Positions 1-64,000 of a stretch of 64,000 nt of DNA are shown piece after piece; positions within the stretch are counted from its first letter, which is position 1; each line of letters starts with the position of its first letter. The notes below the pieces were generated by a model, which made no database searches, had not been told where the DNA came from, and worked only from the letters and a program-made list of their open reading frames with translations. Made by a program: the position numbers and the translations under genes. This DNA is from Stentor roeselii (taxonomy: Eukaryota > Ciliophora > Heterotrichea > Heterotrichida > Stentoridae), in contig RSEH01000056.1 of NCBI GenBank assembly GCA_006503475.1, positions 62,001 to 126,000 of the forward strand. Direction: 5' to 3'.

Positions 1-917
1 TTAGAATTTTCAATTTCCTTCTGATAAGCTTCGATTTCACGTTTGTATTTCGCTTCTTGTCTTTGAGATTTTTCGAACTGCTGAGATAGAAGAAGGACTT
101 TCGCGTTTACTTCATCGAAGCCGACTTTACTTCCTGTTTCTCTTTCAAGTTGTTGAATAATTGAGTCCATTTCTTTCTTGACTCGATCAAGTTCATGTTG
201 AAGTTCCTGATTTTCTTTTCTCAAGATTTTCACTTCTTTAGTTCCTTCAAGTTTCAAGCTTTCGTTTTCCTGTTCAAGAAGTTTTGACTCTCTGATGATA
301 TTATCGATTTCAACAGCACCTTTTCGAGGAACTGCTGCAAGGATCTGGTTATGTTCAATTTTTTTTATATGTTGCTTTAGTTCTTCATTTTCTTGCATTA
401 GTTTCAAAGGGTCGATTTCGAGTTCTTTTATTTTTTTCGCTTGTTCGAGTTCACTTTTAAGACGAGTGATTGTTTTTTGCAGGTTTTCAATGTTTGGAGC
501 TTCTTCAAAAGCGAGTGGAAGAGGGTAATGGACTCTTTCGAACTCTCCTGAAAACGTGAGGATCAGATATCGTTTAGTCATCAGTTTTGGATTCGAAGCC
601 TGGGAAGAAGCATTTCCCGGGTTTCTCGAAGATCTGAACATTTCCAGCTCTTGATACGTGAGCAAGTCGATAATCACTGAGTCACTCGTCGCATCAAGTC
701 CACTCAGAAGCATTTTTAAGAAGATTGGAAACTTTTTAAAGCTTTTTGACTTCTGAGTAAGAGTTTCTATATAATTCGCTGAAAATTCCCCTTTCCAACG
801 TTTTGCTGACTCTTTTTCTTCAAATGACAACTGCAGGTTATCCGAGTCAGAAAGAAGTTCGTAGAAATAAACAGTTCCTCTGATGTTTATATCAGCGCTT
901 TTCTTCAGGTGTTCCAT
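1..917 (-). CDS. CCDC61: CCDC61/VFL3-like basal body protein, N-terminal 305 residues
   Basis: The frame is open from an ATG at 917 to the left edge, so the C-terminus lies outside the window. Residues about 1-150 resemble the globular head of CCDC61/VFL3, a SAS-6/XRCC4-like fold: a WKGEF segment, a SDSVIIDLLTY segment, and near its end KRYLILTF followed by HYPLPL, which are hallmarks of this family. From about residue 165 it becomes a charged coiled coil. CCDC61 and VFL3 are known to organise basal-body-associated fibres and to set basal body orientation, which suits a ciliate. The ATG at 917 is preceded by A/T-rich sequence and starts the head domain directly. Family assignment is from recognition of the head motifs and is fairly secure; the coiled coil alone would not be diagnostic. 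Confidence 0.8.
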   Translation of the reverse strand, partial: MEHLKKSADINIRGTVYFYELLSDSDNLQLSFEEKESAKRWKGEFSANYIETLTQKSKSFKKFPIFLKMLLSGLDATSDSVIIDLLTYQELEMFRSSRNPGNASSQASNPKLMTKRYLILTFSGEFERVHYPLPLAFEEAPNIENLQKTITRLKSELEQAKKIKELEIDPLKLMQENEELKQHIKKIEHNQILAAVPRKGAVEIDNIIRESKLLEQENESLKLEGTKEVKILRKENQELQHELDRVKKEMDSIIQQLERETGSKVGFDEVNAKVLLLSQQFEKSQRQEAKYKREIEAYQKEIENS

Positions 918-995
918 TTAAATTGTAAGAAATGCTTTTTTAGTGATTTGAACTATTTGGCACTTGATGAAAAAGAATTCTTTTAAATAAGTAAG

Positions 996-1340
996 TTATA
1001 ACGGGGTTGATGGGCTCGCCAATGTCGACCTTCTTCGGCATAGTCGCGAATTCACGATTCCTGACAAGTTGACTGAACTTGATGAAAACGACCTTTCTTC
1101 ACGGATGCAAACAGGCTCCAGGTCCCGGTGAAGAGTTTCTAGAATGTTTTCAAGCTTTTCTTGCAGGTCTGTGTAAATTTCTTGGTGCTCACGGGAAATC
1201 GGGTGGAAATGATGGAAGGATAATTCTGGATAAAGTTTACTGCTCTGGATACTGGGCTCATCGTCACTTGAGAACTCCAGATCTAGTGTACTGGCATCTG
1301 ACAACCTCAGCTTTGTGTCATCTTTCACTTCTAAACTCAT
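996..1340 (-). CDS. Hypothetical 114-residue acidic protein
   Basis: An ATG-initiated frame of 114 codons ending in TAA. I do not recognise it. The first half is acidic and Ser-rich (LEFSSDDEPS). A short helical stretch around residues 50-78 (SREHQEIYTDLQEKLENIL) could form a coiled coil. The tail is basic and Ser-rich (SRLCRRRST). It lies between two co-oriented minus-strand genes, 78 bp upstream of the CCDC61-like start. Coding status rests on the intact frame, the fit in the gene array and the A/T-rich start context (AGATTTTTATG). A role at basal bodies would be a guess from proximity only. Confidence 0.55.
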   Translation of the reverse strand: MSLEVKDDTKLRLSDASTLDLEFSSDDEPSIQSSKLYPELSFHHFHPISREHQEIYTDLQEKLENILETLHRDLEPVCIREERSFSSSSVNLSGIVNSRLCRRRSTLASPSTPL

Positions 1341-1738
1341 AAAAATCTTATTATTATAACTAGTAGATAGTCAATATACACCTCAGAAATGAAATTTCAA
1401 GACTTTGGAAAAATTTTAAGGAATTCGGAAGAAAGGGTTTTGGCGTGGATTTAAATTTAAGAGAGTTGAAGGTTGAATCGATTTGAAGAATTAATTTGAG
1501 GGTTTATTGGATGAGGGTTTTTTTATGATTTAGTTTAGGTTAGCCTTTGAGGTGTTTAAAGTTTGTGAAGGAATATTTTTTTCATCTTGTCGGAATTTAT
1601 TTTAGAAAGTTTTCAAGAGTTGGAGTTTAAAATATGATAGTTTTTTTTGATTCTATGAAAAATCATTTAAGATAGTTTCATTTCCAGTTTGAATTGAATA
1701 AAAGTCAAGAAATTATTAAAAATTCTCATAATTAAACC
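1341..1738. other. 398-bp intergenic region, G/T-skewed on the plus strand
   Basis: No convincing gene is present. Most of the stretch (about 1390-1650) is rich in G and T and poor in C on the plus strand. The last 100 bp lose this skew. It contains the 5' flank of the 996-1340 gene and the 3' flank of the 1739-2917 gene. The longest ATG frame, starting near 1389, is only about 21 codons and looks accidental. Confidence 0.6.
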
Positions 1739-2917: not shown

Positions 2918-2968
2918 TATAAACCCCCGCCAAGTAACTCAAATGGTTAAAAGTCTAAAAATGTTAGT

Positions 2969-3964
2969 TTAAGGTTTAAGTAATTCGATGTAATTATCAT
3001 ATCCAATACATATCCACTGATTGTGGCTTGACCATGTCAAGTTGATGATGGGCGAGACTGCATCGTAAACCATCATCGGCTCTTTTATTTCTTCTGAGTT
3101 TTTACGCAGGTCCCAGATAAGTGCTTTGTTATCATCTCCTGCGCTGCATAGGTGACAGTTGAACTCTGGTGACCAGGCAATGCTGTTCACGTAACTGTTG
3201 TGCCCTTTTAGCTCTTGGTATGGAATCGCTGATCTTACGTCGAATATGTTGATTTTGTTTGATTCTAGAGAAATTATTGCTAAGTAGTTTGGATCGATTT
3301 TATTCCAGCAGGCTCGGAGAATTGAAGTGTTTGTGTCTTCGTATAAGATTGAGCAGTGCTCTAAGTTTCTCATATCGAATTTTCGGAGAGAACCGTCTCC
3401 ACTAACACTAACAAATATATTCGGATCATGACTAAAAGCAATATCATTGACTTCCTTATTATGCGTGACAATTTGCTTAATAAGCTGGGTCTTAACAACA
3501 TCATAAATCGAGCAAGTGGTATCAATACTCGCAACTCCAATTTTACTTCGATCTCTAGAGCACCAGTCAAAACTAGTCAAAGGCCCATTATACTCAGTAG
3601 CTTTATTCTGAAACTTATGAATAAGTCTAACCTCATCATTTTCAGTATTCCAAATTTTCAAATTATCACTAGAAGTTGCTAAAGTTTTATCACCCGCCGG
3701 GTCCCACATGATTTTAGTCGGTGAAAACTCATGTTCAAAAGAAGTGCAAATATAAAATTCTTCATATTTTCCGAATTTCAAGATTTGGACCTGGTTTTTC
3801 ACTTCTTCATTCAATGATCCGATTGCGATCTGAGTCTCTTCAGTCGGTATCGGAAAGATGTCAAAAGCGTAAACTTGCCAATCTAGTCGTTTTTTATGAA
3901 CTTGTCGAGAAGTCTCGTGGCTGTTTTCTTCATTGTGGAAGGAATATATTGGATCGATTTCCAT
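2969..3964 (-). CDS. DCAF7: DCAF7/WDR68-type WD40 repeat protein
   Basis: A 331-residue WD40 protein, close to the roughly 340 residues of DCAF7/WDR68 (TTG1 in plants, AN11 in petunia). Family-specific strings are visible: VNDIAFSHDPNIFVSVSGDG followed by LRKFDMRNLEH, then WNKIDPNYLA, and near the C-terminus VNSIAWSPEFNCHLCSAGDD followed by ALIWDLR. The aspartate-arginine endings of several blades (FDMR, FDVR, WDLR) match the DWD boxes of CRL4 substrate receptors. DCAF7 is a scaffold that binds DYRK/HIPK kinases and can load onto CUL4-DDB1. The ATG is in the context CTATAAATG. The frame is complete without a proven intron. Confidence 0.92.
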   Translation of the reverse strand: MEIDPIYSFHNEENSHETSRQVHKKRLDWQVYAFDIFPIPTEETQIAIGSLNEEVKNQVQILKFGKYEEFYICTSFEHEFSPTKIMWDPAGDKTLATSSDNLKIWNTENDEVRLIHKFQNKATEYNGPLTSFDWCSRDRSKIGVASIDTTCSIYDVVKTQLIKQIVTHNKEVNDIAFSHDPNIFVSVSGDGSLRKFDMRNLEHCSILYEDTNTSILRACWNKIDPNYLAIISLESNKINIFDVRSAIPYQELKGHNSYVNSIAWSPEFNCHLCSAGDDNKALIWDLRKNSEEIKEPMMVYDAVSPIINLTWSSHNQWICIGYDNYIELLKP

Positions 3965-4026
3965 TTATAGTCTTAATTTTCAGAGATGACTGGTGGCTAA
4001 TTGAATGATTTAGGATTTTTAGAGTA

Positions 4027-4482
4027 TTACTTTGTGAGCTGTCGCATTAGAAGTTGACGGTTTTTCATTATCATTGAAATTATCTCTGGGTCTTCTAGAA
4101 TTGACTCTGGACGAGGACTCTGTTTGAAGACTGAGTTTCGGCCTTTGGGACTTTGGATTGAGTCTTTTTCGGATATTTGAGTACTGTAGTTCTCGGGGGT
4201 TTTTAGGAGCAGCTTTTGGGGGTTTTCATTTAGTTTTTCTATTGACTTTGACCTTTGAGCTGATTTTATGTCTTTTAGGATATTTTTCACTTTGCGGAGA
4301 CTTTTTTGTAAGTCTTTTGAAATATTGTCGGTGTCTTCAGAACAGTCTGTGATGTCGTTGAACTCTTGGAAATATGAGCTGATTATTCTTTGTTTTTTCA
4401 AAATTTTGTGCCTAGTTTTATTTATTTTGGCAGTTTTCTTGTAAAAATCTTCCTTGACTTCATTTGAAAAATCGCACCCCAT
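4027..4482 (-). CDS. Hypothetical 151-residue protein with predicted N-terminal acylation
   Basis: The frame extends upstream without an ATG, and the first ATG is at 4482, which I take as the start. The resulting N-terminus is MGCDFSNE. Gly2 and Cys3 make a plausible dual N-myristoylation/palmitoylation site, which would tether it to membranes. The rest is basic and helical: FYKKTAKINKTRHKILKKQ, then a possible coiled coil around SKDLQKSLRKVKNILKDI, then a Ser/Pro-rich tail with several SP sites (QSPKGR, KQSPRP). No family is recognised. Lipidation is inferred from the motif alone. Confidence 0.6.
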   Translation of the reverse strand: MGCDFSNEVKEDFYKKTAKINKTRHKILKKQRIISSYFQEFNDITDCSEDTDNISKDLQKSLRKVKNILKDIKSAQRSKSIEKLNENPQKLLLKTPENYSTQISEKDSIQSPKGRNSVFKQSPRPESILEDPEIISMIMKNRQLLMRQLTK

Positions 4483-13141: not shown

Positions 13142-14803
13142 TTAATTCTGAAGACTCTGGTCAAAAAAACCTCCAACTGCCTCATCATGTTCTTCATCCC
13201 AAGAGATTGTCAAGGTTCCTCTTGAGTCATCTTGAATCTTCACCAGTTCCACAACGTGTCCTGGGACTTTTTCTTTAAGTTCATCGAGAGACCCATGAAA
13301 ACTATAAGAAAACAGAAAAACTGACTTTTCAATCCAATCTTGATAAACATTTCCCTGAACTTCACTGATGATCTGATTTCCTAAAAGCGATTCAACTTCA
13401 TTTCTATGAAAATCTTCTTTAAAAGACCCTAAAAGTTTATAGTCCATGTTTAACTGAGTCATTACCTCACATTTAATGACAAGTTTTTCAAGGTTTCCTG
13501 GGTAATAACAAGGAACTCCAAGTGAATTTTGGACTTCTTGCATGAGTCCTCTCATTCTTTCCTCTTCTCCATGCACGAGGACGACGTTATCAGGGTGGAC
13601 CCAGCGAAGCACTTGAAGGATTCCTCGATGATCCGAATGTGCACTGAAGGAAATTGTTTGAATTTCACATCGAACGTCGTACGACTTGCCGTCGATGTTG
13701 ACGACATCAGCGCCTTTAAGCAAAGTGTGCCCGACAGTGCCAGGTACGCAGTAGCCTGGAATGATTATCGTGTTTTTACTGTCATCGCACCATTCTTTAA
13801 ACACTGCAAGGCTCAGACCTCCATGAAGCATTCCTGGAGTCGCTATAAGCACCATCGGGTCTTTGGACTTTATTGTTCCTCGGTCAAATTGAGTGATGTG
13901 CTGGAAGTCGAACATGTTTCTTGATAAAAATACTCTTTGAACGTTTTCGTTGCACCAATTGATGAAGGTCTTGTAAAGTTGATTCGCCTTCTCGGTTAAT
14001 GTCCCTGCGAAGTGCAAGGCACAGTCAAGTTGAGCTCTTTGCCAGTAGGTGTCGAGTAATATGCATAACTCTTGAGCCCTTCCCAGAGCGAAGACAGGAA
14101 TTAGGACTTTTCCACCTCGGTCTATTGTTTGGATCACTTTTTTTAAGAAAACTTTTTCTCTTCGCATTTTTAGTTCTCGGAATTTTGTAGCGTATGTCGA
14201 TTCGGAGATTATTACGTGCGGGTCTAGTCTTTCGATCCAGGCACTTCGGAGATGACGGTCGCCGACAACGTTGTAGTCACCTGTGTATACAACTGAGTGG
14301 CCTCTGCACTCAACATAAAACATGACAGCTCCAAGAACATGTCCAGCATAATAAGCTCTAATATTGATATCTCCAATAGTAAGAGTTTGATGTAGTTCAA
14401 TAGTTCTAACCTTATTACAACATTCCTTGATCATAGCCTGAGTGTAAAAGTTCGTTTCCCCTTTATGCTCAACACAAACTTTCCTAAAATCCTCCAACAT
14501 AAGAGGAATAATCGCTCTAGCAGGTGCCGACATCAAGACCGGTCCAGAGTACCCTTTAATCTCAGTAAAATAAGGTAAAGCACCACAATGATCAAGATGA
14601 AAATGTGTGACAAGAACAACATCAATAGCTTCAGTATAATCCTTAAGGTCTCCAAGATACCCGAAGTAAGGATATCGTCTTTCATCATCATATCCCATGT
14701 GGACTCCACAGTCAAACATGATGGTCTTTCCAGCCATTTTGACCAAGACACAACTTCTGCCGACCTCTTTGCCTGCTCCAAGGGGGATGATTTCAATTGA
14801 CAT
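13142..14803 (-). CDS. INTS11: Integrator complex nuclease subunit 11
   Basis: 553 residues. This is a metallo-beta-lactamase/beta-CASP RNA endonuclease. The catalytic motif HFHLDH is at residues 67-72, with YYAGHVLGA, YTGDYN, a beta-CASP segment (LIPVFALGRAQELCILL) and SFSAHSDHRG downstream. The order GAGKEVGRSC near the N-terminus and ITQFDRGTIKSKDP later fit INTS11 better than CPSF73. INTS11 cleaves nascent snRNA and promoter-proximal transcripts as part of Integrator. Metal-binding residues are intact. The C-terminal part after residue 440 is divergent, as expected for the INTS9-binding region. The convergent gene at 11743 ends only 10 bp away, and BCAT begins its 3' end 15 bp upstream. 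Confidence 0.93.
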   Translation of the reverse strand: MSIEIIPLGAGKEVGRSCVLVKMAGKTIMFDCGVHMGYDDERRYPYFGYLGDLKDYTEAIDVVLVTHFHLDHCGALPYFTEIKGYSGPVLMSAPARAIIPLMLEDFRKVCVEHKGETNFYTQAMIKECCNKVRTIELHQTLTIGDINIRAYYAGHVLGAVMFYVECRGHSVVYTGDYNVVGDRHLRSAWIERLDPHVIISESTYATKFRELKMRREKVFLKKVIQTIDRGGKVLIPVFALGRAQELCILLDTYWQRAQLDCALHFAGTLTEKANQLYKTFINWCNENVQRVFLSRNMFDFQHITQFDRGTIKSKDPMVLIATPGMLHGGLSLAVFKEWCDDSKNTIIIPGYCVPGTVGHTLLKGADVVNIDGKSYDVRCEIQTISFSAHSDHRGILQVLRWVHPDNVVLVHGEEERMRGLMQEVQNSLGVPCYYPGNLEKLVIKCEVMTQLNMDYKLLGSFKEDFHRNEVESLLGNQIISEVQGNVYQDWIEKSVFLFSYSFHGSLDELKEKVPGHVVELVKIQDDSRGTLTISWDEEHDEAVGGFFDQSLQN

Positions 14804-14818: not shown

Positions 14819-15940
14819 TTAAGTCACATAATGTTGGAATTCATGGGAAATTTCACCGTATTGAATCGATAATATCTTTTCTTGCAACCTGTGAGTCAAC
14901 TTGCCAACGTTACCCATTTCTAATGGGACTTTGTAACTCTTGTCTTTAAATGTTATCTTTTCAACTGGGCATACTATGCATGCTGTTCCTGCACCGAAGG
15001 CTTCTATCACTCGCCCTTGCTCGAGAGCTTCGATTAGATCGAATATCGTGTATTTGGTTTCTTTTATTTTGAACTCGTTCCAGCCTTTGCAGATCTGGAG
15101 AATTGAATCTCGAGTTATACCTGGAAGGATTGTTCCGTCGAGTTCGCAGGTTACCAGTTCTTCCTCCCCCTGTTTATTTTTCCAAAACACAAAAAAGTTC
15201 ATAGTTCCAGCTTCAGTAACCAAATTCTTACAAAGCCATAAAATCTGATTAAATCCCTTATTCTGCAAGTGATAAGTATGTCCAATACTAGGTGCATAAT
15301 TCGCTCCAATTTTTTTATCCCCAGATCCTCCAGGATAAGCCCTGGCGATTTCATCATCACAATACAAATGAACAGGTTTGAATCCTCCAGGAAAATAAGG
15401 TCCAACAGTGCTATTAACAACATAAAGTTTCGCATTTCTCGGTTTTGCGACTCCAAGTCCGACATGAGTTCCAATAAAAGTAGGTCTAACATACAAAGAA
15501 TACCCTCTAAGACTAGGTATCCAGTCTTCATCTTCAACAAGTAACTTTTCAATGCACTTCAACAGTTCTTCGCCGTCAAAGTCAGGTAATCCGACAGCGT
15601 GTGCACTTTTTTTCAGTCTTTTCATGTTTTCATGAGGACGGAACATGAGGATCTGCCCCTTTGAGTTTTTGTAGGACTTCATTCCTTCGAAGCACTCGTT
15701 TCCGTAGTGCAGGACTGTTGTTGCTGGGTCCATCACGAACTTGTGGTAAGGATTGATCTCTGGAGACCTCCAGCCTGAGTGCTCTGACCAGTCTATTTCA
15801 AGCATGTGGTCTGTCAACGCTGTTCCGAATAACAACTTTTCATTCAGAACTGGCTTCATCTTTGGAGATGTCGACTTGGTTATCTTTAGAGATGAACTGG
15901 AAAACGAGGAAAAGACTCTTGAACATGCTCTGAACCACAT
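14819..15940 (-). CDS. BCAT: Branched-chain amino acid aminotransferase, probably mitochondrial
   Basis: 373 residues, a fold-type IV PLP enzyme. Family strings are VLHYGNECFEGMK, MFRPHENMKRL, YVRPTFIGTHVGLGV and GGSGDKKIGANYAPS; the last holds the likely PLP lysine. TEAGTMNFFVFW and LDGTILPGITRDSIL follow. It interconverts Leu, Ile and Val with their 2-oxo acids using 2-oxoglutarate. The N-terminus (MWFRACSRVFSSFSSSSLKITK) is rich in Arg and Ser without acids, as in a mitochondrial targeting sequence. The start is in the context AAATAAATG. It is co-oriented with INTS11, 15 bp apart. Confidence 0.93.
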   Translation of the reverse strand: MWFRACSRVFSSFSSSSLKITKSTSPKMKPVLNEKLLFGTALTDHMLEIDWSEHSGWRSPEINPYHKFVMDPATTVLHYGNECFEGMKSYKNSKGQILMFRPHENMKRLKKSAHAVGLPDFDGEELLKCIEKLLVEDEDWIPSLRGYSLYVRPTFIGTHVGLGVAKPRNAKLYVVNSTVGPYFPGGFKPVHLYCDDEIARAYPGGSGDKKIGANYAPSIGHTYHLQNKGFNQILWLCKNLVTEAGTMNFFVFWKNKQGEEELVTCELDGTILPGITRDSILQICKGWNEFKIKETKYTIFDLIEALEQGRVIEAFGAGTACIVCPVEKITFKDKSYKVPLEMGNVGKLTHRLQEKILSIQYGEISHEFQHYVT

Positions 15941-16239
15941 TTATTTTAGCTAATATGGTGATTGTTTGGGTAAAGGGGAAATTTCTGGTGAAATGATGGG
16001 ATTTTAAATTTTGGATGGAGTTTTGGGGTTAACAGTTTTTTTTTATTTGGGTTGTTTTGGATGAAAATTTTTTTTTTTTAGGATTTTTTGGAGGTTTTGA
16101 AAGGTAAATCACGAGATTAGATGTTAGATTGGTAATCAAGAAATACAGACCTCAATACAATAAAAAATAGTAAAAAATTTTATCTTCTCTCACTTTCCTT
16201 AAATTATCAATCACCTTAATGTTTAACACTAACAATTAA
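15941..16239. other. 299-bp intergenic region with a strand-composition flip
   Basis: No gene seen. From 15941 to about 16090 the plus strand is G/T-rich and C-poor, with long T runs. From about 16130 to 16239 it becomes C/A-rich and G-poor. It holds the 5' flank of BCAT and the 3' flank of the 16240-17508 gene. Confidence 0.6.
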
Positions 16240-19776: not shown

Positions 19777-20310
19777 ATGAAGCCTGTCTGCTCAGAAAAT
19801 CGATTAAACGTCCAGTCTTCATTTAAACCTGCAAAAAAAATTATGGGAAAGAAAAATTTAAGTATCGCTACTTTTGAGTATATCTGGCCTTCTTCGATTC
19901 CTGACAAATACAAGCACAACATGATGAAGCAAAATTTGACTGAAGTAAGTTTGAAAAAAACTAATAGAAATACTTTGAAATTTTTAGAAGAGACTCAAAA
20001 GTATATCAATCGAATTAGAAATCCTGAGTTGAGTGGTGACTGCCACTTAAGCAACGAAAAAAAGCCGCGACTGACAAAAAAACCTAAAAACATCAACCTT
20101 CTTCTAAGCACAAAACTCGATTCATTAGGTAAAGGTCTAATCACAAAAAGAAGACAACTCTTAAACCCACTCGAGCCTTCACCAAATGTATCATCCCATT
20201 TCCAGACTCATAAATCCATCAAATCATGTCGAATAATCACTCTTTCCCTTTACCCAGAACCTCAAATAATATCCACTCACCGTGAATCATTCTCCCAAAT
20301 CCATAAATAA
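19777..20310 (+). CDS. Hypothetical basic protein, 177 residues
   Basis: An ATG to TAA frame. No domain recognised. It is basic and rich in Lys, Asn and Ser (KKTNRNTLKFLEETQKYINR, KKPRLTKKPKNI, ITKRRQLLNPLEP). No membrane segment or signal peptide is visible. The final TAA overlaps the next start codon by one base (TAATG at 20308-20312), an arrangement that is common in bacteria but rare between separate eukaryotic genes. Function unknown. Confidence 0.55.
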   Translation: MKPVCSENRLNVQSSFKPAKKIMGKKNLSIATFEYIWPSSIPDKYKHNMMKQNLTEVSLKKTNRNTLKFLEETQKYINRIRNPELSGDCHLSNEKKPRLTKKPKNINLLLSTKLDSLGKGLITKRRQLLNPLEPSPNVSSHFQTHKSIKSCRIITLSLYPEPQIISTHRESFSQIHK

Positions 20311-34247: not shown

Positions 34248-34345
34248 ATAAAAATTCATTTATGCGGGTTGCTTAATTAAACATCAAACCAAATCATTCC
34301 TGCGAAAATTTCAAATAATAAAAAACCCAATCTTCTAAAACCTCA

Positions 34346-47588: not shown

Positions 47589-48626
47589 CTAAATTATGGG
47601 GTAAACTGGCCGCGTGTTTATTCCACAAACGCCGACACCAGCTGAAAGACCTAGTTGAATATATCCGCTATTTCCCCAGGCAGTTCCCCAGGAGTTTTTA
47701 ATGGTCCAGTTCGGCACTCCGGTAGTGTCATATCCAGTGATCAGCACTGCGTGATTCAAAGCGATTCCGCAGTTATTCGTCATGATTCCAGATTTATACA
47801 ACATCCACTCCATGTTGGCCTCGACACTTGTGGCCACTGGCTGAATAGTCACTGCTCTCATTAAGGCCAGGTAGTTGAAGGCTGTCACGTTTTGATAGGA
47901 TTTTATTGAGACGTCCTTGTTTTCTTCTTGGGTCTTGTTGCATGACTGGTCTACTGCTTTGTAAGGATAGTTCGCTTCTGTGTTCAGACCGTTGGAGACC
48001 ACGTATTTAAAGCACAGCCAAGCGTAGCCTCCGTTGCATCCTTCGTTTTCTGAACAGTCCATCAGCTGCTGCTCTGAAAATAAGGGAAGGTCCGAAGATA
48101 GACTTTGGTTTATTGCCCAGGCACTCTCGATTGCACCGGTTGATGCGAAGGTGTAGCAGCTTCCGCATTTTCCTTGGTTTTTCACTTTTGTTACTCGATT
48201 TTGTGATACCCAGTCTACGCTGGATGGAAGAGGGTCGATTGAATCTGGGTCAAGTGAGATTTGGATTGGGTCTGAGGGTGGAGCATTCAGAACAGGCTCT
48301 TCTTTAAACAAGTAAATCGAAGAAAATTCCGAAAAATCCATATCAGCGAATTGATTAACTCCAAGAACCACTGAAGATTCTCTTAAGTTATGGCGATGAA
48401 TATACTCCAAGTTATTTTTAAATTTCTGGAACCGAGACATGACTTCATCAGCAGAATAATCTTTGTTAAAATACCTAACAAAAAGCGAAAATTCCTGTTC
48501 TTCAGCTTCCAATTTGCTTAAAACCGGATTTCGACTAGGCATAATACAAAAAACAGCAGTAAATCCTATCAAAACAATCAAAATCCTCATGCTAAGTCGA
48601 TATCCCTTATTTTCCTCTCCCAACAT
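47589..48626 (-). CDS. Papain-family cysteine protease (cathepsin L-like)
   Basis: 345 residues from the first ATG; a second ATG 12 codons later (48590) begins the signal peptide MRILIVLIGFTAVFC more tightly and may be the real start. An I29 propeptide (residues about 45-105) has FVRYFNKDY and a GVNQFADMDFSEF string. The mature enzyme begins near LPSSVDWV. The catalytic residues are Cys in GKCGSCYTFAS, His in LNHAVLITGY and Asn in IKNSWGTAWG; the oxyanion Gln is in KNQGKCG. CGSCY is a slight departure from CGSCW. It is expected in food vacuoles or lysosomes. Confidence 0.93.
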   Translation of the reverse strand: MLGEENKGYRLSMRILIVLIGFTAVFCIMPSRNPVLSKLEAEEQEFSLFVRYFNKDYSADEVMSRFQKFKNNLEYIHRHNLRESSVVLGVNQFADMDFSEFSSIYLFKEEPVLNAPPSDPIQISLDPDSIDPLPSSVDWVSQNRVTKVKNQGKCGSCYTFASTGAIESAWAINQSLSSDLPLFSEQQLMDCSENEGCNGGYAWLCFKYVVSNGLNTEANYPYKAVDQSCNKTQEENKDVSIKSYQNVTAFNYLALMRAVTIQPVATSVEANMEWMLYKSGIMTNNCGIALNHAVLITGYDTTGVPNWTIKNSWGTAWGNSGYIQLGLSAGVGVCGINTRPVYPII

Positions 48627-49664: not shown

Positions 49665-52600
49665 ATGTCTGACCCCCTGTATTCAGAAAGCGATCTTCCG
49701 AAATCTGTAATATTTACTCAGGAGTCCTGTCAAGTGTGTTGGAAAAACGAGTCAAGTACATCACTAAAGTCTGACCTGCGAACATCTCTTCATTTCTGTA
49801 AAGCCTGTTTGTTGCCAGTTCACAGAGCATGCTACGGTCTTCCGAGTACCTCAGAAAAGTTGTTTTTTTGCGACCGATGTTTAGACTCAGGTCCATCAGT
49901 GGACATAGGATGCGAAATTTGTGGTTCAAAGAACGGTGCTTTGAAAAAATCAGGTTCTTCCTGGACTCACGTCACTTGCGCCATTTCTCTTGGTCTGATC
50001 ACGAACTGGGAAACGATGACGATTCGGGCGTTGGAAGGCAAGGAGACCCGAGAAAGGCCTCAGACCTGTTCTTTGTGCCAGGCGAAAAGTTTAGGAACGG
50101 TCAAGTGTTCAGACTGCGACAGTCGAAGTCATTATATTTGTGCGCTAAAAAAACAGGTCATCAGTGATATCGACTTCGTGACTTTAAAGCGGTTTTACTG
50201 TGAAGAACATATCGTTTCACATGAAAAGTACTGCTTTTGCACTAAAGGGTATGTTGATGGGCAGGACTTCATGATTGCCTGTGATTGTTGTGATGTCTGG
50301 TATCATGGAGAATGTATGAATGTCTCGCAGGCACTTGGAGAGAAGATTGAACATTACTTGTGCAGGTTCTGTGATAACTGGAGTAAGGTTAAGTCGAAGT
50401 TAGACAGAGATGATGTTAAAATTGTGATTTCTGATATTCCTAGCGTTTTTGCTAATTTCAAGTTAAAGGATTGGCTCATGCTGGCTCGCGCGGTCTGGCA
50501 ACGTGCTTGTTTTAGTTTAGAAAGAAAAAGCAGGGTTGAAGAAATCAAGGAAAGCTTGGAGATGATTCGTCATGTTCCTTTCAAAATAGGACTTCAGAAG
50601 GAATTAATGGAAAAACAAGAGAGCTCTATTCGACTTGGAAAAAGAGAAATCGAGTTTCTTCCTTTAATGAAAGATAACCCTGATGAAGCTTTACTTTCTC
50701 GACTGCAAAATTTTATGTCTGAAGTAAAAAATGCTGGCGTTTTACTGCCAAATATGGAAAAAATCTCTCAATATATTGAAAATAGTCAAAGTCTTTTACA
50801 GATCAGAGAAATTTTAGATAACTCGAAACTTTTCAGCTTATCCCAAGTAAAAAAAATCTACGAAGACATGTTAAAAAAGTTCTCAAAAGACCTAGACTGC
50901 ATAGTCGACCTAAAAAAAAACATAACAACCTGCGAAAACTGGTTCAGCCAAATGAAAGAAGAGTTAAAACAAAGCCAAACCAAGTCTCTAGGTTCAAAAC
51001 TTTCAACAGACGAGTTGAAATCTCATTTATCAAAAGCGAAATCTCTTCCTTTTTCAATGCAAATGGAAATTCGTGTCGTTGAAGACGAGTTGAAATCAGC
51101 AGAAGACTGGGACAAAAAATACAAATCACTGGAAAAGCCGATTCACCCTTCAGACCTGCAGCTTATTCTTCAAGAAACTGAAAGTCTTGCAGTAGAAACC
51201 CAATACATGCGAGCGGCTTGGAACAAATACGAAGATTTCAACGAGTGGGTGAAAAAGACCAAGTCAATCACCCACCCTTCGCCAAATGCAGTCCTTCCTT
51301 ACATCGACCAAGTCAGTGCTCACCTGGCCTTAGGCGAAAGCGACATCAGTCCTTATATCGAATGCAAGGACCTCATCTCTACACTTAAAGGAAAAATCGA
51401 AGAAGCTGAAGCTTGGCAAGCAGCAGCAGCTTCAGTCATCTCGTCGAAGACAGCCGCTCAGAAGTTGAGTCTTCTTGTGCGAGAAGCAAAGACCATCATT
51501 TGTCAGTTCCCTGAACTCGAAGTGATTGAAAGACGAGTCAATATCAACAAAAAGATCTCAGACGTGATTCATAAAAAACATAAGGAAGATGAACTTTTTA
51601 ATTTACTTGCTGAGGGAAAAGAACTTGGAGCTGATGATGAGTTTATTCAAGCTCTTTATTTGAGAATTGATAATGTCAGGGAACTTAAAACGAAAGTTAA
51701 ATGTTCTTTAGAGACTTCTTCAAGTGACCCTTTCGCAACTTGTACTAAGTTGCTGGAAGACTTGAAAAGTTCAAGAGTTGAATTGCCTGATGAAAGGTTT
51801 TGGATTGAAGAAAGGCTTAAATCGATCAAGTGGCTACAAACTGTTAGAGATACTTTAAAGGAAATTGAAGAAACTCGTGAAGATTTCTTGGGAAAAAAGA
51901 AAAAAGGTGAATGGGATGTTATTAAGAGCCTTGTTGCAAAAGGTGAGAAAATCACTAATAAAGACCATCAGGCTGAGGAAAAGCTGCAAGAACTTATTTT
52001 AAAGCTTTGGGAAATGGAATATGCAAGGTTTAGTCAATGTGATGAAGTCACCTTGGAACAAATTCAAGAACTGGAAAATCGATCAGAGTCTTTGAAATCA
52101 AATCCTGATACTTTTATTGCTTTCAAAGAGCTTTTGATGAAAATCAATGAGTCATTGAATTTCTTTGATAAATTATTGATTGATGATATTAGTGTGACTC
52201 TTGCTGGGGACTTGGAATTGTTGAAGTTCAGGATTGAGGAAAATAAGTCTAAACTTGAGGAGTTTGGAGTGATTTTCCCTGAAAAATACTCGAAAGTACT
52301 GAGTTGGGACAAGTGGATTGACTGGTGCTTGTCGACTGAACAATCTTTGAAGTCCAAGCCAGGAATTGACAAGTTATATGAGATGAATCAGGAAGCGATT
52401 AATCTGAATATACCGAGTTCAGTGCCCTGCCTTAGCGACCTGAACATTACGATTAACGAATATGAGAACTGGCTTTATAAGTATACTGCCTACTCTTCAG
52501 CACGCAAATGGTTCAGTCTCCAAAGTTTCGAGATTCATCATTACCTAAAAAAAACCTCTGAAAAGCCCAAACTATTCAGATCCCAGATACAAGACCTTCT

Positions 52601-55600
52601 TGCCAAAGCAGAAAAACTCAGTGTCAACTGTGAAGAAGAAATAAAAACCATGCATTCAGATTTAACCGACCTTGAAAAAAGTCTCGAAAGACAGCAAAAC
52701 TTTTTCAATAAGGTGAAATACCCAGACTTGCTAAGTAAATGCAAAGAATCTTATGCGAATTTCATCGAAACTGACCATGCAAAAGAATTTTACGAGATAG
52801 TAAAAGAATACTGCTTTAAAGTCTTCATAGAATTCGAAGATAACGGCATTAAGCTCTGTTCTTATGAATGGAACTTCAGTGGACAGAGACTTTTACAGCA
52901 TAAAGGAAAAATTTCTCTTGAAGACTGGAACGATTTCTTCATGTCAATTGAATATCTCAATAAGGACTATCTTGACAACTCAACTCTTGAAAGACTTCGA
53001 GTGCAGAACCTTCTCAGACTACAAATCGAAGAAGAACTCGCAAAGATAAAAACATCTGAAAGTCAAGGAACTGAAGGAAAACAAATGCAATTCGAAGTCT
53101 TAGAAGTCCTTGACAAGCAAATCTCCGCCTGTAAGATTGTCTTAAACACTGAATCATCTTACGTTAAAGCAACTCTTGACAAATGCAAGGATTTAACTGA
53201 AAAATACAAGAATCTCGTTGAAACTAAAGCATTTTTACCTGACTTTAAAGCACTTCAACAAGAAATTCTCAATCTTCCTGTTGTCATTCCAGAAACCTCT
53301 CAAAAAATTAAGGAAACTATTGAAAAAGTCTCAACTTTAAGCATCAGGGCAAGGATTTTAAAAGAACATGCAAATAAAAACAAAATCGATAGAAATAAAG
53401 TTGAACAGTTCCTCGTCGACTATAAAAATTCAGATGTTCGCCTTGAAGACGGCGAAAACATGCAAAACGAACTGAACTACTCGAAACAAGTCCTGGAAGA
53501 AGCAGTGAACAGCGTCTATGAAGAGAACGTGACACTTGATCAGCTTAATTTTATTTCTGGAAAGCTGAGCAACATGCGTATTTTCATGGGAAGTGAAGAA
53601 AAAGACGTGAAAATAAAACTTTGGAAGAAAAAACTGCAACTTTCAGTAAATTTAAAAGTGAATTACTCGATTATTCTAGGATGGTTTAATGAAGGTGAAC
53701 AGATGAAGGATTATTCTATGCAAGAAGACCTTGACCGACTGGAACTTTACGTTAGAAAAGGCGAGGATGTCAAGAAAAAACTCGCTGAATGCTCTAGTTT
53801 AGAAGATATCCAAAGAATTGAAGCGGAAGCTGAAAATTTACCTTTTGACCTAACTCATGCAGTCATTGAACATAAAACAAGAGTTTCTCTTAGTAAAGCT
53901 CCTGAAACCAAACCGGCTCCTGTTGTTTCAAATGAAAATTTTGTGGATGGACTTGAAAATCGACCACTTTCGACTAAGGCTCTTGAAACTGCACTTGCAA
54001 AGGATCCTGCTTTTCAATGGGCTCGACATGGACAGAAACTTAATAAAATTGCTTCGAGAATAGAAGAGATTATTTATAGGAATTCTCAGGGGAATAATTA
54101 TAAAAGAGCTGTTAAACTTTTAGCTACTATTATTGTTAGTCTACAGGATTATGGTGGGTTCTCAGAAAAAATTTATAAAGGCGAAATTACACCGGAAGAA
54201 ATCAGCCTTTTGAGTGCTAGTGAGGTGAAAAATGCAAAAGTTATTAGAAGAATTTTTGATGGTAGTCCAACTGTTACAGTGAACATCCACAGATCACTCC
54301 TAAGATCCTCAGAAAAACAAGAAGAGCTAATAAAAAAGAAAAAAATCGAAAAACCCGAAAAAGTCGAGAAATCTCATCCAAAAAAAGAAATTTCAAATCT
54401 AAAAAACATGATAAAAAGCATACCGCAGCCATCAATCCCCATAAAAAGCGAAAACAAATCAATTCCAAAGCCAGTTCAATCCAGCAGTTTCTCCGTCACA
54501 GGTCTTTTAAACGAAGTCCAAGCCTTCGACAAGCGAGCTTCAGATTCCAAAAAACTCCAAAAAAAAGAAGACCCAAAAGACTCTTTCCTAGTCTCCGAAA
54601 AATACCGTCTTCCCGAAACCAAAGTAGAATCCAAAAATCCAGTCGACGAATGGAAAGAACTCAGCAAAATTCGACTAGAACGTTCAGGTTTCAACACTTC
54701 AGACTTCGACAAATCTGAAGAACTTCCAAACCGGAGGTCTCGTTACGATGACTACCCAGAAGGCAGATTCAGTTCAGACGAAGAAGAACTGAACGAAGGC
54801 AGTGAGGGTGGAGCAAAAGAGTACAACTTGATGGAACTTGCTCAGAAGCCAGACATTCAAAGAAGAAAACATCGAAAAAAGCAGAAACTTTATGACCCGT
54901 TTTCTTCAGCTACTCCGAAAAATAAGGCTTTGGCTGGATCATTGTTGAAAGTTTGGACTGGTTCGATGGAGTACGGAAAACACACGATTTCTGTGAATAT
55001 GATGTCAGTTGATAATATTGAACTCTTTCAGAAGATACCCAAGCTGACTGCCAAACTTCAGGTTCATGGCCGGACTAAACAAAACGAATTGGAAGTCTAC
55101 ATCTCACAAAATGCATCTGGACTTGCCACTCGGTCTATTGTCACTGCTTGGGTAGAAGCTTCTGAACCGACTGATAAATATTTCATTGAACTCGCGAATG
55201 ATCTGAAAGAGAAAAATCGCGCGGCGGTTATTCGCATAGATAATTCATTAACTATTTACCTTTCAGCCATTACGGAGTCGTTTATTTCTTTTTTGAATAA
55301 TCTACGGATCAATATCAACCAAAAGATTGATAAGTCGGTTGCTAGCTGGATTAGTCATCATGAAAAACTGGGCTGCCTCATTTTTTATAAAAAATCAGCC
55401 ATTTCAAGTTCAGCTTTAATGGACCCTGAAATAGTGGCAAATATTGACCCATCAAGTATTCCAGAACACGAAGAAGATGATTTACCTGAAAAAGAAGAAA
55501 TGTCTCCAATCACATCAGATGATGAAAAGGAAGAAAAACCTGAAAGTATTCCTAAAGTTCTACAAGAGGCTTTGAATGCTTTATCAAGTGGAGCCAATTA

Positions 55601-56821: not shown

Positions 56822-57365
56822 GTAAATTAGTTGATATTTTTATTATTTCATTTTAGTTAGATGTTTCAATTTATATGAAGAGAAAAGTATTCCATGAGAT
56901 ATTTTATGATAGAAAGTCCTGAATAATAAACTTCTCTCTTCAGATAAGGTTCAACTGGTAGATTCAAACACCATTAAAAATTAAATAAATCTCATTAATT
57001 CAACAACACCCAAATATAATAAGCACTTAAACTAACACAATAAAAAATCATCCCTTTCCCAAAAGCACATCTTCTTATTAAAAAATCCAAATGAATCCTC
57101 TCCACCCATTACAAACATTACCTCACTCCTTGAAAAGATACGATAATTTCATCAACTCAAGAAAATACGGATAACAGAGTTATCAAAAGAAAAAATATCT
57201 TCTCACCAAACCACTTTCAAAATCTACCTTTTTTACCACAAACATTGAAAGATCTCCTTTCTTCTATAAAGATTGCAAAAATTATTCAATCAAAAAGATA
57301 TTTTTTCTATCTAAGTTCCCAGCTCAAAAAACTCAATAGTCTCATATCTTACAAAATCTTTGAAA
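56822..57365. other. 544-bp intergenic region, A/C-rich in its right part
   Basis: The left 130 bp are moderately G/T-rich. From about 56960 it is C/A-rich and G-poor on the plus strand, up to the MLF gene. I find no open frame or RNA signal. Confidence 0.55.
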
Positions 57366-58187
57366 ATGCTGGCAATTCGAGAAAATTCGAAGAGATCAAG
57401 AAGTAACTACCCTGCTGAAAATCATCAATTGGCCCATCGGTCTCCTAACTTTGGACATCGAGATGACTTCTTTGGTGGGTTTGGAGCTCCTGCTATCATG
57501 TCGGAAAATCCTTTTGCTTCTATGGAAAGGATGATGAACAGAATGAACCACATGGCTCAGGAAATGTTTGCAGGGTTTGGGGAAATGGCGAATTTGAGAA
57601 ATGGATTTAATCATTCTGAACATTCTGGAAATTATTATTCGTCTACATTCGTTCAAAGTACGAAAATTGATAGGAATGGACAACCGGTTGTTGAAAAGTA
57701 TAGGTCGGAAGCTAAGGGCGCTAGGAATGATAGAGGGGAAATGATCAGGGAAAGGAAACAGGCTTATGCTAATACTGAAACAGGACTTGAAAAATATGGA
57801 CATGAAAGAATGATCGGCGATAAAGGACGAAAAGTCGTTAAAGAAAAAATGGGAGATTACGAAAGAACCAGTGACGTATTCAAAAACCTAAACGAGCGAG
57901 AAGTCCACGATTTCGACCGAGACTGGATGGGAAACTGGGGTGGTCCTTCAATGCATGCAGTTTCAGGTAATCATTACGGAAGATTTATTCCCGAAGAACG
58001 TAAAATCGACGATGGAAGACGAGGAGACTTCATTCCAAACCACTACAGAGCGGAAAACCAGCCAGTCCGAAGAACAGACATCCAGCCGACGATCCCAGCC
58101 CCAAGACAACAAGCTTTACCAGCGCCAGCAAGAAGAGCACCTCAAAGAAACTCACAACCTCGAAGGACTCCAGCTCCAGGAGCTTGA
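57366..58187 (+). CDS. MLF1: Myeloid leukemia factor (MLF) family protein
   Basis: The first ATG is at 57366 (MLAIRENSKRS), giving 273 residues. The MLF core is at about residues 45-200: ENPFASMERMMNRMNHMAQ near its start, SSTFVQSTKID then KYRSEAKGARND, GLEKYGHERMIGDKGRKVV and the acidic EVHDFDRDWM. MLF proteins are small, natively flexible and associate with chaperones and phase-separated bodies; functions remain broad. The C-terminus is Pro/Arg/Gln-rich (PAPRQQALPAPARRAPQR). It ends in TGA. Confidence 0.9.
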   Translation: MLAIRENSKRSRSNYPAENHQLAHRSPNFGHRDDFFGGFGAPAIMSENPFASMERMMNRMNHMAQEMFAGFGEMANLRNGFNHSEHSGNYYSSTFVQSTKIDRNGQPVVEKYRSEAKGARNDRGEMIRERKQAYANTETGLEKYGHERMIGDKGRKVVKEKMGDYERTSDVFKNLNEREVHDFDRDWMGNWGGPSMHAVSGNHYGRFIPEERKIDDGRRGDFIPNHYRAENQPVRRTDIQPTIPAPRQQALPAPARRAPQRNSQPRRTPAPGA

Positions 58188-61253: not shown

Positions 61254-62762
61254 ATGGATCAAGAAATTCATGATTTCGTCTTGCAGCTCAATAGGGAAGC
61301 TATGAACTACTTGAAAGATGGAGAATTTCAATTCGCGATCAAGACTTTGAAGGATGCTGAAAAGGTATTGTTGAGACTACCGAAGTTGAAAACTTCGAAA
61401 CTTTTTGGAATCACTTTTAATAATTTTGGATGCTTTTACAAAAGGATGAATAAACCTAATGTTGCTTTGAAGTATCTGATCAAAGCATGTAAAAATGAAT
61501 CGGTTGAACCTGTTGATAAAGTTAATCTGGCTGGGACTTTATTGAATATTTGTGCTATTTACTCGCAGTTAGGGAAACATTTGAAGGCACTGGAGCAGAG
61601 CTGTGAAGCTTTAGAGCTTTTGAAAGAGGGGAACCAAGATAGCAAACATTACATGAGCACTCTGATAATCGCATATCATAATACAGGAGTTGAATATGAA
61701 TATTTGTCTAATTTAAGACAAGCAGCTGACTGTTACAAGACAGCCTGGACCCTTGCCCTGGCTCATTTCGGAGAAACTCACAGTTTGACTCAGTCGGTTC
61801 ACCAGAACTACTTAGAAGCTTTAGAAAAACTCGAAAAATCTGAAATAAAAAACATCCTCCGTGATCAACAAAGAACTCTAAGCAAGTTTCACCAAGTTGA
61901 CCAACATCTTCCCTCAATAAACAAGAAAAGATCTCCTATCAAACCACAGACCGATGCTCAGAAAACTCGTCACAGATCTCCTTTAAAAGAAGAAAGCCTA
62001 AAAAACGACCCTGATTTGAATAAAGTCAGGTTTTTAACAGGCGAAAGGCTTCAACCAATGCACAAGACCAGAGGTGTCAGAATTCACTTCAGGACTGGAA
62101 TCAAAGAATCAGGCCTAAATGAAAAAATCAGAGAAAATGATGATGCAGAATTTTTTATTGACTCACAAGCCAGAACCTCTTCAGCTCCTCTGAACATGAA
62201 AGGAAAAAAATACATGAAACTCGGAATTGAAACTGAAAATTACGACTTTGTTCAGATTAAAAATTTTAATGAAAAGAACAAAAAAGATCTGAAGTTTGAA
62301 AGTAAATTAAAAGATCTGCATCAACAGGATAGTTTGGATTTGATGAAAGAAGAAAATATTGAAAAATTTGAAGCTCTTGATGAGTTTATCAGAGGTGAAG
62401 AGTTTATTTTACCTGAAGAAAGCCCGATTGTTGAGATGATTAAAAAAGATAAAGAAGGAGAAGAAAAAAAGGTAAAATTTCAGGAAAGTGATAATGAAGA
62501 AATTAAAGACCTCAAAAAACAAAACTGTGAAAATGAAAAAACAACCCCAGAACTTCAAGAAAACTTAAAAAGTCTAACTTTAACCCAGCAAGTCTTCCAA
62601 GGCTACTTAAAACGAAAAGAAACCTTAAAACTTCTAACCTCAGTTGTTCTTATCCAAAAACACATCAGAAAATACCAATGCAGGTCAATCTACCTAAACA
62701 TCCGCAACGCTGTAATATTTATCCAAAAATCATATCGAGCCTATTTAAAGACTAAATCCTAA
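61254..62762 (+). CDS. TPR protein with C-terminal IQ motifs, 502 residues
   Basis: Five or so tetratricopeptide repeats at residues about 10-190: AMNYLKDGEFQFAIKTLKDA, FNNFGCFYKRMNKPNVALKY, LLNICAIYSQLGKHLKALEQ and YHNTGVEYEYLSNLRQAADC. A disordered, charged middle follows. The C-terminus has two to three IQ-like helices (VVLIQKHIRKYQCR, VIFIQKSYRAYLK) that could bind calmodulin. It may be a ciliary or cytoskeletal adaptor. The convergent kinase gene ends 25 bp away. Confidence 0.75.
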   Translation: MDQEIHDFVLQLNREAMNYLKDGEFQFAIKTLKDAEKVLLRLPKLKTSKLFGITFNNFGCFYKRMNKPNVALKYLIKACKNESVEPVDKVNLAGTLLNICAIYSQLGKHLKALEQSCEALELLKEGNQDSKHYMSTLIIAYHNTGVEYEYLSNLRQAADCYKTAWTLALAHFGETHSLTQSVHQNYLEALEKLEKSEIKNILRDQQRTLSKFHQVDQHLPSINKKRSPIKPQTDAQKTRHRSPLKEESLKNDPDLNKVRFLTGERLQPMHKTRGVRIHFRTGIKESGLNEKIRENDDAEFFIDSQARTSSAPLNMKGKKYMKLGIETENYDFVQIKNFNEKNKKDLKFESKLKDLHQQDSLDLMKEENIEKFEALDEFIRGEEFILPEESPIVEMIKKDKEGEEKKVKFQESDNEEIKDLKKQNCENEKTTPELQENLKSLTLTQQVFQGYLKRKETLKLLTSVVLIQKHIRKYQCRSIYLNIRNAVIFIQKSYRAYLKTKS

Positions 62763-62787
62763 TTAAACACTGCATATCTATCATATA

Positions 62788-64000
62788 CTAAAACCTCAAA
62801 GGAACAGAAGCTTTTCTATGCGGCTGAAGTTTGATGTTATCAAGTTCCTTCAGCGCTTCAACCAAATTATTCCTATAATTTTCTTCACTTTTCTTGAAAG
62901 TATACCCAGTGAAATTCGAGTCTTTCTTATGTTTTCTCTTAACCTGTGGGTGAAAAGGTTCATTTTCTTCAAACTTATCAAAATTGCTAGTATCAAATTC
63001 ATTTTGCAGCTTTGGCATCCAAGGAGCGCGAGTCTCTCTAATTTTTTCCCAATTAATTCCTTTAAAAAACGGGTGATTTTTTATTTCTTGAGCCCCTCGA
63101 CTTCCAAGTCGTTCATTCGGATCACAGATGAGTTTTTTGATCAAATCAGTGACTTCTCTTGAAAGTCCAGCTTCTCTAGGAATGTTTAAAGTTTTTTTCC
63201 AATGAAGGATTTTTTGGCAGGTCAAAGAAGGGTCATCGGCGAAGAAAGGAGGGTACCCGACGACCATTTCATATAAAATGACTCCGACACTCCACCAGTC
63301 AGCAGTTTCATTGTAACCTTGCTTGTTAAACACCTCAGGAGCGATGTAGTCAGGGGTCCCGACAGTGGAAAAAGCAAGAATTCGGCTTCTTTTGTATTCT
63401 GAGTGCTTTGTTGAAGAGACACTTGCTTCATCTTCGTTGTTTTTCTTGAGAATAAAGGAGTCACCTGTGAGATTTGCTTGTTTGCATAGGCCGAAGTCTG
63501 AAAGTTTGATGTGCCCTGTTCGGTCGATTAGGACGTTGTCGGGCTTCAGGTCTCGGTGAATGTAACTCATTTTATGGACACTTTCTACTGATAAGACTAA
63601 CTCAGCGATGTAGAACCTGGCCTCGTCTTCTGGAAGAATGTCACGTTTCATTAGGATGTTCATTAAGTCACCTCCTGGAAGGTACTCCATTACTAGGTAT
63701 AAACTGGAATCGTCTTGAAATGAGGATTTTAACTCGACTATCCAGGGATTGTCAGCGAAGGCTAGGACGTTTCTTTCCGAGCGCACATGAGTAATCTGAT
63801 TCTTTCTAATCATCTCCTGTTTCGACATTTTCTTCATAGCCTGAATCTCACCCGTAATCTTATTCCTCACAACTCGAACTTCTCCGAAAGCGCCTTTACC
63901 AATGATAGCAATAGATTCAAAGTCAAAAACCGAAGTTCTTCTCCTCATAGAGCGCATGTTGATTGCTTCTTTTCTAAATATATCCTGTTTAATCATCTGT
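62788..64000 (-). CDS. STK38: NDR/STK38-type AGC protein kinase, start beyond or at the right edge
   Basis: The frame is open to the right edge; an ATG at 63996 gives 402 residues, but NDR kinases normally have about 80 more residues upstream, so the N-terminus may be missing. The glycine loop is GKGAFGEVRVV, the VAIK-type lysine lies in QAMKKMSK, then YIHRDLKPDNVL and SDFGLC. The activation segment contains an insert of about 30 residues and ends RILAFSTVGTPDYIAPEV, as in NDR with its phospho-Ser. The hydrophobic motif is NFTGYTFKK, with the likely phosphorylated Thr. NDR kinases act with MOB proteins in morphogenesis and division. Confidence 0.93.
   Translation of the reverse strand, partial: QMIKQDIFRKEAINMRSMRRRTSVFDFESIAIIGKGAFGEVRVVRNKITGEIQAMKKMSKQEMIRKNQITHVRSERNVLAFADNPWIVELKSSFQDDSSLYLVMEYLPGGDLMNILMKRDILPEDEARFYIAELVLSVESVHKMSYIHRDLKPDNVLIDRTGHIKLSDFGLCKQANLTGDSFILKKNNEDEASVSSTKHSEYKRSRILAFSTVGTPDYIAPEVFNKQGYNETADWWSVGVILYEMVVGYPPFFADDPSLTCQKILHWKKTLNIPREAGLSREVTDLIKKLICDPNERLGSRGAQEIKNHPFFKGINWEKIRETRAPWMPKLQNEFDTSNFDKFEENEPFHPQVKRKHKKDSNFTGYTFKKSEENYRNNLVEALKELDNIKLQPHRKASVPLRF

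Follow-up and report, generated by a model that had tools for sequence, protein, structure and literature searches.

A sawtooth of strand composition with abrupt steps inside genes of the ciliate Stentor roeselii

What makes the two strands of a ciliate gene exchange their base composition abruptly in the middle of a reading frame? The question is raised by 64,000 nucleotides of the Stentor roeselii assembly GCA_006503475.1 (44.39 Mb, 522 contigs), namely positions 62001-126000 of contig RSEH01000056.1 (C396:62001-126000, hereafter the window). A sequence-only reading of this stretch had proposed that G/T-rich and A/C-rich blocks alternate along its plus strand, and that the flips change wobble-base usage regardless of gene ends. 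Here we find that the pattern is genuine and takes the form of a sawtooth, in which sharp drops from G/T to A/C are followed by a slow return. We tentatively suggest that the drops may be recurrent germline break sites with resected flanks. Published work is cited by PMC number.

Strand composition along the window exceeds synonymous-codon shuffles

Third codon positions were scored as K (plus-strand G/T) or M (A/C), and the K residual was computed per codon family. Met, Trp and stop codons, and frames that were shorter than 80 codons or had a low coding score, were excluded ahead of counting. The null was obtained by shuffling synonymous codons inside gene and codon family, with 100 shuffles for the window autocorrelation. 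An enlarged sample of 306 kb with 72,807 sites was composed of C396 1-176000, C466 90001-150000, C1 1-10000 and C2 1-60000. A drop is a K-to-M step, G/T-rich on its left and A/C-rich on its right, and a rise is the M-to-K reverse. Exclusion of junctions near ends or with few sites left 83 junctions for placement and composition, 64 for site strings and 85/87 for width and TA.

The flips are real, as K autocorrelation at synonymous third positions in the window exceeded the shuffles with z of 5.1-10.1 at lags of 1-40 codons and 3.5 at lag 60. Within genes it was 0.042 at lag 1, 0.07-0.08 at lags 2-12 and 0.06 at lag 30, and it fell to about 0 by lag 80. The G+C axis was weaker (maximum 0.053 at lag 1, otherwise at most 0.03) and the purine axis weakest (0.029 at lag 3, z 3.7, and at most 0.013 at other lags). 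Over the 306 kb, the plus-strand K curve crossed zero at about 280 bp, reached a minimum at 500-600 bp and rose slightly at about 1.5 kb, and the same curve was obtained in all four sampled contigs. Two 50-kb pieces of E. coli gave autocorrelations of at most 0.006 and no drop or rise above z 4.5, with counts as in shuffles.

The drop detector found 28 drops with z > 5 in the window and 83 in the 306 kb. With a filter for site density, the 306 kb yielded 68 drops at z > 5 against 0.4 in 20 shuffles, and 42 against 0.0 at z > 6. The density of one drop per 1-2 kb was estimated by modelling, with weaker drops counted too. The 28 drops of the window are listed below in window coordinates with strand given as '.', together with the open reading frame (ORF) in which they lie and, where there was one, the switch point that had been read by eye.

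1686..1706, strand., drop, z 5.8
3376..3396, strand., drop in minus-strand ORF 2969-3964, z 7.7, by eye 3390
4432..4452, strand., drop, z 8.6, by eye 4420
14296..14316, strand., drop in ORF 13142-14803, z 7.3, by eye 14330
15151..15171, strand., drop in ORF 14819-15940, z 5.4, by eye 15180
16123..16143, strand., drop between ORFs, z 6.7, by eye 16110
20029..20049, strand., drop in ORF 19777-20310, z 5.9
22888..22908, strand., drop in coiled-coil ORF 21582-24704, the strongest of the window, z 9.2, with site string, by eye 22905
24670..24690, strand., drop near the end of ORF 21582-24704, z 6.3
25615..25635, strand., drop between ORFs, z 8.2, by eye 25630
27130..27150, strand., drop in ORF 26642-28030, z 5.6
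28342..28362, strand., drop between ORFs, z 6.4, by eye 28360
29610..29630, strand., drop in CH-domain ORF 29330-30883, z 6.1, by eye 29640
31512..31532, strand., drop in ORF 31022-31855 (eS4 of the sequence-only reading), z 6.5, by eye 31510
34264..34284, strand., drop, z 6.4
35002..35022, strand., drop in ORF 34346-35080, z 6.7
38935..38955, strand., drop in ORF 38264-41179, z 6.4, by eye 38960
41558..41578, strand., drop in ORF 41304-43079, z 6.2
43838..43858, strand., drop in ORF 43261-46254, z 5.2, by eye 43870
44621..44641, strand., drop in ORF 43261-46254, z 6.0, by eye 44640
48271..48291, strand., drop in ORF 47589-48626, z 7.7
50823..50843, strand., drop in ORF 49665-56129, z 5.2
52479..52499, strand., drop in ORF 49665-56129, z 5.6
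54267..54287, strand., drop in ORF 49665-56129, z 6.9, by eye 54280
56898..56918, strand., drop between ORFs, z 7.2
57768..57788, strand., drop in ORF 57366-58187, z 5.3, by eye 57810
62496..62516, strand., drop in ORF 61254-62762, z 5.2, by eye 62500
63765..63785, strand., drop in ORF 62788-63996, z 6.7

Eighteen switch points had been read by eye, and 17 of them have a drop with z >= 4.9 within 32 bp; z 4.5 was reached in 14% of 200-bp windows spaced over the whole stretch. Sixteen are among the 28 drops, the point at 8290 was matched under a slightly different weighting (z 5.0, 14 bp off), and the point at 6100 was not borne out (best z 2.6 within 100 bp). The wobble flips that had been counted by hand in the eS4 gene (31510) and the coiled-coil gene (22905) agree in sign and location. 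Disregard of gene ends holds as well, with 13 of the 18 points located inside frames, 205-1843 bp from the nearer end, and five between frames.

Drops are sharp and rises are gradual

Switching between K and M had been described as an alternation of blocks, and this needs amendment, as the two kinds of switch are unlike. When drops were chosen on T/C sites only (154 drops), the unused G/A sites changed abruptly, with peaks of +0.13/-0.13 and a decay over about 500 bp; when they were chosen on G/A sites only (70 drops), the unused T/C sites stepped with peaks of +0.18/-0.21, and 39 rises chosen likewise agreed. Since drops are seen in the site class that was not used to choose them, the T/C and G/A changes share the same points. 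Rises chosen on T/C sites (127) were flat at the centre. With the site-density filter, 40 rises exceeded z 5 (shuffles 0.2), and above z 7 one rise was found in the 306 kb versus 19 drops. The derivative skewness at coding sites with 30-bp smoothing was -0.62, compared with 0.003 +- 0.117 in 200 random-reversal surrogates, -0.08 +- 0.09 in 20 synonymous shuffles and -0.11 in E. coli.

The transition was best fitted as a step, lying between simulated widths of 0 and 20 bp (0, 20, 50 and 100 bp were tried on 85 junctions). Across the 120-bp flanks of the 47 drops with z >= 6, the K fraction fell from 0.74 to 0.25, T/(T+C) was 0.87 on the left and 0.40 on the right, and G/(G+A) was 0.59 and 0.11, values that are inflated because the drops were selected on these sites. 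Among the site strings of the 12 strongest drops, one shows about 30 consecutive M sites just past its first site. On both flanks the bias favours T over C and G over A on the strand whose 3' end points toward the drop; it is maximal beside the drop and fades over about 0.5-0.8 kb.

Renewal-model simulations were fitted to the autocorrelation, with 18 bins treated as independent and four simulations per setting. Flanks of fixed range fitted best, with an optimum of 0.8 kb that lay at the limit of the grid, a mean spacing of 0.9-1.8 kb and a weak regularity (gamma shape 1-3, chi2 32-44), compared with chi2 59-69 for a stronger regularity of spacing and at least 59 for slopes as long as the interval. 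Averages by interval length showed a decay alike from each drop, and long intervals hide weak undetected drops. The fits support, and do not prove, that the flank range may be fixed and independent of the next drop.

The pattern follows the DNA strand and not the gene

A process acting on the DNA strand had been preferred to transcription, and neighbouring genes of both orientations as well as non-coding DNA do share the plus-strand curve. Adjacent genes of like orientation have the K curve in common, and neighbours on opposite strands correlate positively at 150-500 bp in plus-strand and not in sense coordinates. In 65,769 non-coding bases the autocorrelation was 0.029 and approached 0 by 300 bp; the correlation between non-coding bases and coding sites was 0.054-0.055 at 60-150 bp and negative at 400-1000 bp. 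Around 87 drops, non-coding bases were too sparse for a step profile (25-715 bases per bin). Across drops, K shifts slightly the same way at codon position 1 (0.52 to 0.46) and position 2 (0.50 to 0.48). We infer an evolutionary rather than a sequencing effect, because the strong bias is limited to tolerated sites in long open frames.

In sense orientation, genes are slightly A/C-rich at the start and slightly G/T-rich at the end (synonymous sites, 256 kb).

Placement of drops and comparison of paralogs

Twenty of the 83 drops were non-coding, where non-coding DNA makes up 26.5% of the sequence, and 43 of the 83 lay in a reading frame, 350 bp or more from its ends. Around the 83 drops G+C was slightly lower (0.35, versus 0.38-0.39 at 500 bp) and there was more non-coding DNA. 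The 43 in-gene drops showed no composition dip at codon positions 1-2 or 3.

Several words near the step were considered and rejected. TA, suggested by the first k-mer scans, was a product of AT-rich surroundings and the choice of the best position, and it was gone once adjacent sites were omitted. Near the step, values of up to z 6.9 were seen for GTCA and for words made up of M alone, CCA among them; GTCA, and TA at 4 bp either side (z 3.8 and 2.5), were judged to be artefacts, since their peaks shift outward as more bases around the step are excluded (4, 8, 12 bp). GACCC, CCACC and GGACCC showed a slight excess over the highest of 13 null offsets (4.8 vs 4.5, 5.3 vs 4.8 and 6.0 vs 5.2), and they are K|M or all-M words and not a motif.

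To better understand how drops are placed, we compared smoothed K profiles in 12 pairs of paralogs. The eS4 gene at 31022-31855 has a second copy at C466:117170-117981, which is identical to it in 83% of the DNA, 94% of the protein and 63% of third positions, and the two copies have a drop at the matching place with a profile correlation of 0.89. A shared profile was found in the trio c396_82/84/85 (0.94-0.98) and a partly shared one in the trio c396_0/1/4 (0.32, 0.58, 0.78). No shared profile was found in c396_89/90 (-0.16), 88/89 (0.03), 88/90 (-0.07) and c466_0/1 (-0.06), with sawteeth visible in each, and the pair c2_15/16 had no K structure (0.11). Because some diverged paralogs drop at different places, drop positions are not set by the encoded protein, and they appear to change in the course of evolution. 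Alignment gaps between paralogs gave no signal near drops (0.09 vs 0.05 within 3 codons, 11 drop/pair cases). Two tandem arrays of diverged paralogs lie on C396, at 2279-14186 and 132157-150281, and such arrays are useful for dating the gain and loss of drops.

Genome traits and neighbouring features

The window is gene-dense, with long reading frames under the standard code (table 1). In the 306 kb, 15-nt GT..AG introns close seven frame gaps and 16-nt introns none, while each other length from 12 to 30 closes at most two. The stops after strong frames are TAG (30), TAA (27) and TGA (9), part of these being exon ends. The 15-nt introns and the standard code fit a heterotrich ciliate macronuclear genome, and Stentor is reported to use the standard code with introns of 15-16 nt (PMC9505925).

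One such 15-nt GT..AG intron, at 60519-60533, interrupts the gene at 59425-61221, which by eye resembles an arginine methyltransferase. The frame at 49665-56129 (2154 aa) has PLU-1, PHD and SPOC matches. The region 8700-11742 is AT-rich (G+C 23-29% at 9-12 kb) and has no frame of at least 150 aa; no drop with z > 5 was found in it, where the power of the method is low.

Discussion

The reading that we favour, tentatively and at less than even likelihood, is that the drops are recurrent germline break sites with resected flanks. Germline DNA would break repeatedly at fixed points, and 5' resection would leave the 3'-ended strand single-stranded to the left and right of each break. C-to-T and A-to-G changes, by deamination and error-prone fill-in, would build up on the exposed strand, and the bias would be visible where selection tolerates change. 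Meiotic Spo11 or another nuclease are candidates for the breaking agent. Somatic mutations of ciliates are not inherited, so the process would have to act in the germline. We are less confident in a further step, which we consider doubtful, that the broken segment would be a germline-limited insert that is excised from the somatic (macronuclear) assembly, each drop being its seam where the germline chromosome was repeatedly broken and resected. The sharpness of the drops and their mid-gene placement would be most simply understood if the broken segment were missing from the somatic assembly.

Several observations are consistent with breakage and resection, and several known systems share features with the drops. 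An excess of the C-to-T and A-to-G type, in compositional form only, was found on the 3'-ended strand of both flanks, and the whole assembly contains one TP6A_N domain, of the Spo11/topoisomerase VI A type (PF04406, E 3.9e-18, C316:14907-15089). Replication of mitochondrial DNA leaves gradients of C-to-T and A-to-G on the strand that is single-stranded longest; these are the same two changes as here, but there is one gradient per mitochondrial genome. Flanks of human meiotic hotspots are reported to carry C>N and A>N changes on the forward strand, which is single-stranded left of the break, and their polarity equals that of the drops, with flanks on the kilobase scale (PMC7615360). Those data are de novo or rare variants at PRDM9 sites, whereas here a compositional bias is seen at dense points that also lie in genes. 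In Blepharisma, 39,799 germline inserts were reconstructed for a 41-Mb somatic genome, or about one per kb, about 70% of them in genes and usually with a TA boundary (PMC9942856), so that these internal eliminated sequences resemble the drops in their comparable, here estimated, density, their location within genes and their point-like precise seams; they are TA-bounded, whereas the drops have no TA at the step and inserts here are hypothetical. At Candida albicans centromeres a skew jump of 74%, gone within about 3 kb, was judged non-replicative (PMC3459929) and thus offers a precedent for large local skews of such origin, although that jump is at centromeres and the drops occur in all four sampled contigs. 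In two Paramecium species the germline base-substitution rate is about 2.4e-11 per site per division (PMC6027866), low enough for a rare process linked to breaks plausibly to dominate. It had been remarked that no description of the pattern was known; we likewise found none of such a pattern for ciliates in the open-access literature, a search whose coverage leaves out most subscription papers, while the single elements have the counterparts given above.

Other results weigh against this reading. K-mer scans of the drops yielded no motif, and TA at the step was not enriched (85/87 junctions; z -0.38, versus 3.03 +- 0.77 if all were on TA); with 4, 8 and 12 bp omitted z was -0.4, 1.1 and 0.0, a statistic that is compatible with a minority of drops on TA. 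PiggyBac homologues are reported to be common to heterotrichs (PMC9942806), and a six-frame search of the assembly with PF13843 (PiggyBac) gave no match, as did the control genomes. That the step lacks TA, together with the PiggyBac search in which the controls were empty as well, speaks against a boundary of the Blepharisma type. Two DNA queries over drops retrieved no near-identical second copy that might be germline DNA. Human hotspots are reported to lack asymmetry in a central zone of 100 bp to each side and to have maxima of several mutation types 700-800 bp off (PMC7615360), whereas the bias here is maximal next to the drop. Human breaks are spread over about 100 bp, and the drops are sharper. 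The asymmetry itself is less distinct under other settings, as 60-bp smoothing gave a derivative skewness of -0.97, yet shuffles gave -0.34 +- 0.16 and E. coli -0.33, and inclusion of non-coding bases reduced it to -0.37 (30 bp) and -0.52 (60 bp). Sites more than 650 bp from detected drops kept an autocorrelation of 0.044 (0.117 near drops), so that either weak drops were missed or a second component is present. Directed substitutions in one paralog trio numbered 20 in all, too few to judge.

The main rival, which we regard as possible and yet somewhat unlikely, is that the drops are dense, efficient germline replication origins with an A/C-rich leading strand, and that variable meeting of forks gives the gradual rise. 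The leading strand of budding yeast is reported to be A/C-enriched, so an origin would also give a K-to-M step, and the skew at eukaryotic origins is expected to be sharp at the start and gradual between (PMC3459929). Yeast origin skew is likewise abrupt and then gradual with A/C on the same side, and differs in step size, density and decay range; the steps here are far above the 9% GC-skew jump at yeast origins (PMC3459929). In Tetrahymena, likely macronuclear origins number one per 15 kb (PMC5182062), against an estimated one drop per 1-2 kb here. Spacing is mildly regular and intervals of 0.9-2.2 kb are near linear, as origins would have it, but flanks of fixed range fitted better than interval-long slopes (chi2 32 vs 59), with undetected drops blurring the direct comparison of intervals, and no motif was found at drops. 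Replication, which had been put forward as the better candidate, is less supported, given steps that are large, at most 20 bp wide and, by estimate, dense.

The leading strand is G/T-rich in bacteria and humans. The polarity would then also fit drops that mark where forks invariably meet, or where short linear units of replication end, given diffuse starts and a G/T-rich leading strand, and gene-sized replicating chromosomes are reported in spirotrich ciliates (PMC5182062). We consider this improbable, because forks are described as meeting in kilobase-scale zones in yeast and without skew jumps in human (PMC3459929), whereas the drops are 20-bp points, and because the sampled contigs are 156-182 kb long, with drops in mid-gene and no motif.

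Meiotic transcription takes place in the germline nuclei of ciliates, and transcribed DNA acquires strand-biased mutations, usually with a G/T-rich non-template strand. Non-coding germline transcription during development could draw on both, and is nonetheless very improbable as the driver of the bias, since every drop would need transcripts that converge on it from the two flanks and terminate within some 20 bp. It is harder still to credit a mosaic origin, in which germline segments that retain a germline strand bias of long range were joined in alternating orientation to form the somatic sequence; this would yield the mid-gene flips regardless of gene ends that are seen, but it predicts equal sharpness both ways, against the excess of drops over rises above z 7 and the flat centre of rises. 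Selection on codon use, mRNA structure or translation is the least credible of all, for although the signal is strongest at synonymous sites and sense strands lean slightly to M at gene starts and to K at gene ends, the pattern extends to non-coding DNA, which correlates with coding sites nearby, codon positions 1 and 2 are shifted the same way, and opposite-strand neighbours share the plus-strand and not the sense pattern.

If each drop is the seam of a germline-limited insert at which the germline chromosome is broken and resected again and again, one strand-exposing process, not replication, would drive much of the neutral evolution of this genome, and the somatic sequence would be a fossil map, resolved almost to the base, of where germline inserts or breaks lie, tens of thousands of them when one per 1-2 kb is extrapolated to 44 Mb. 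If the flanks record single-strand exposure, a scan of composition alone could locate germline break or insert sites in somatic sequence, and the codon usage of a eukaryotic nuclear genome would be set at the scale of 0.1-1 kb by one strand-specific process. If so, analyses of codon usage, gene conversion and phylogeny in such species would be distorted.

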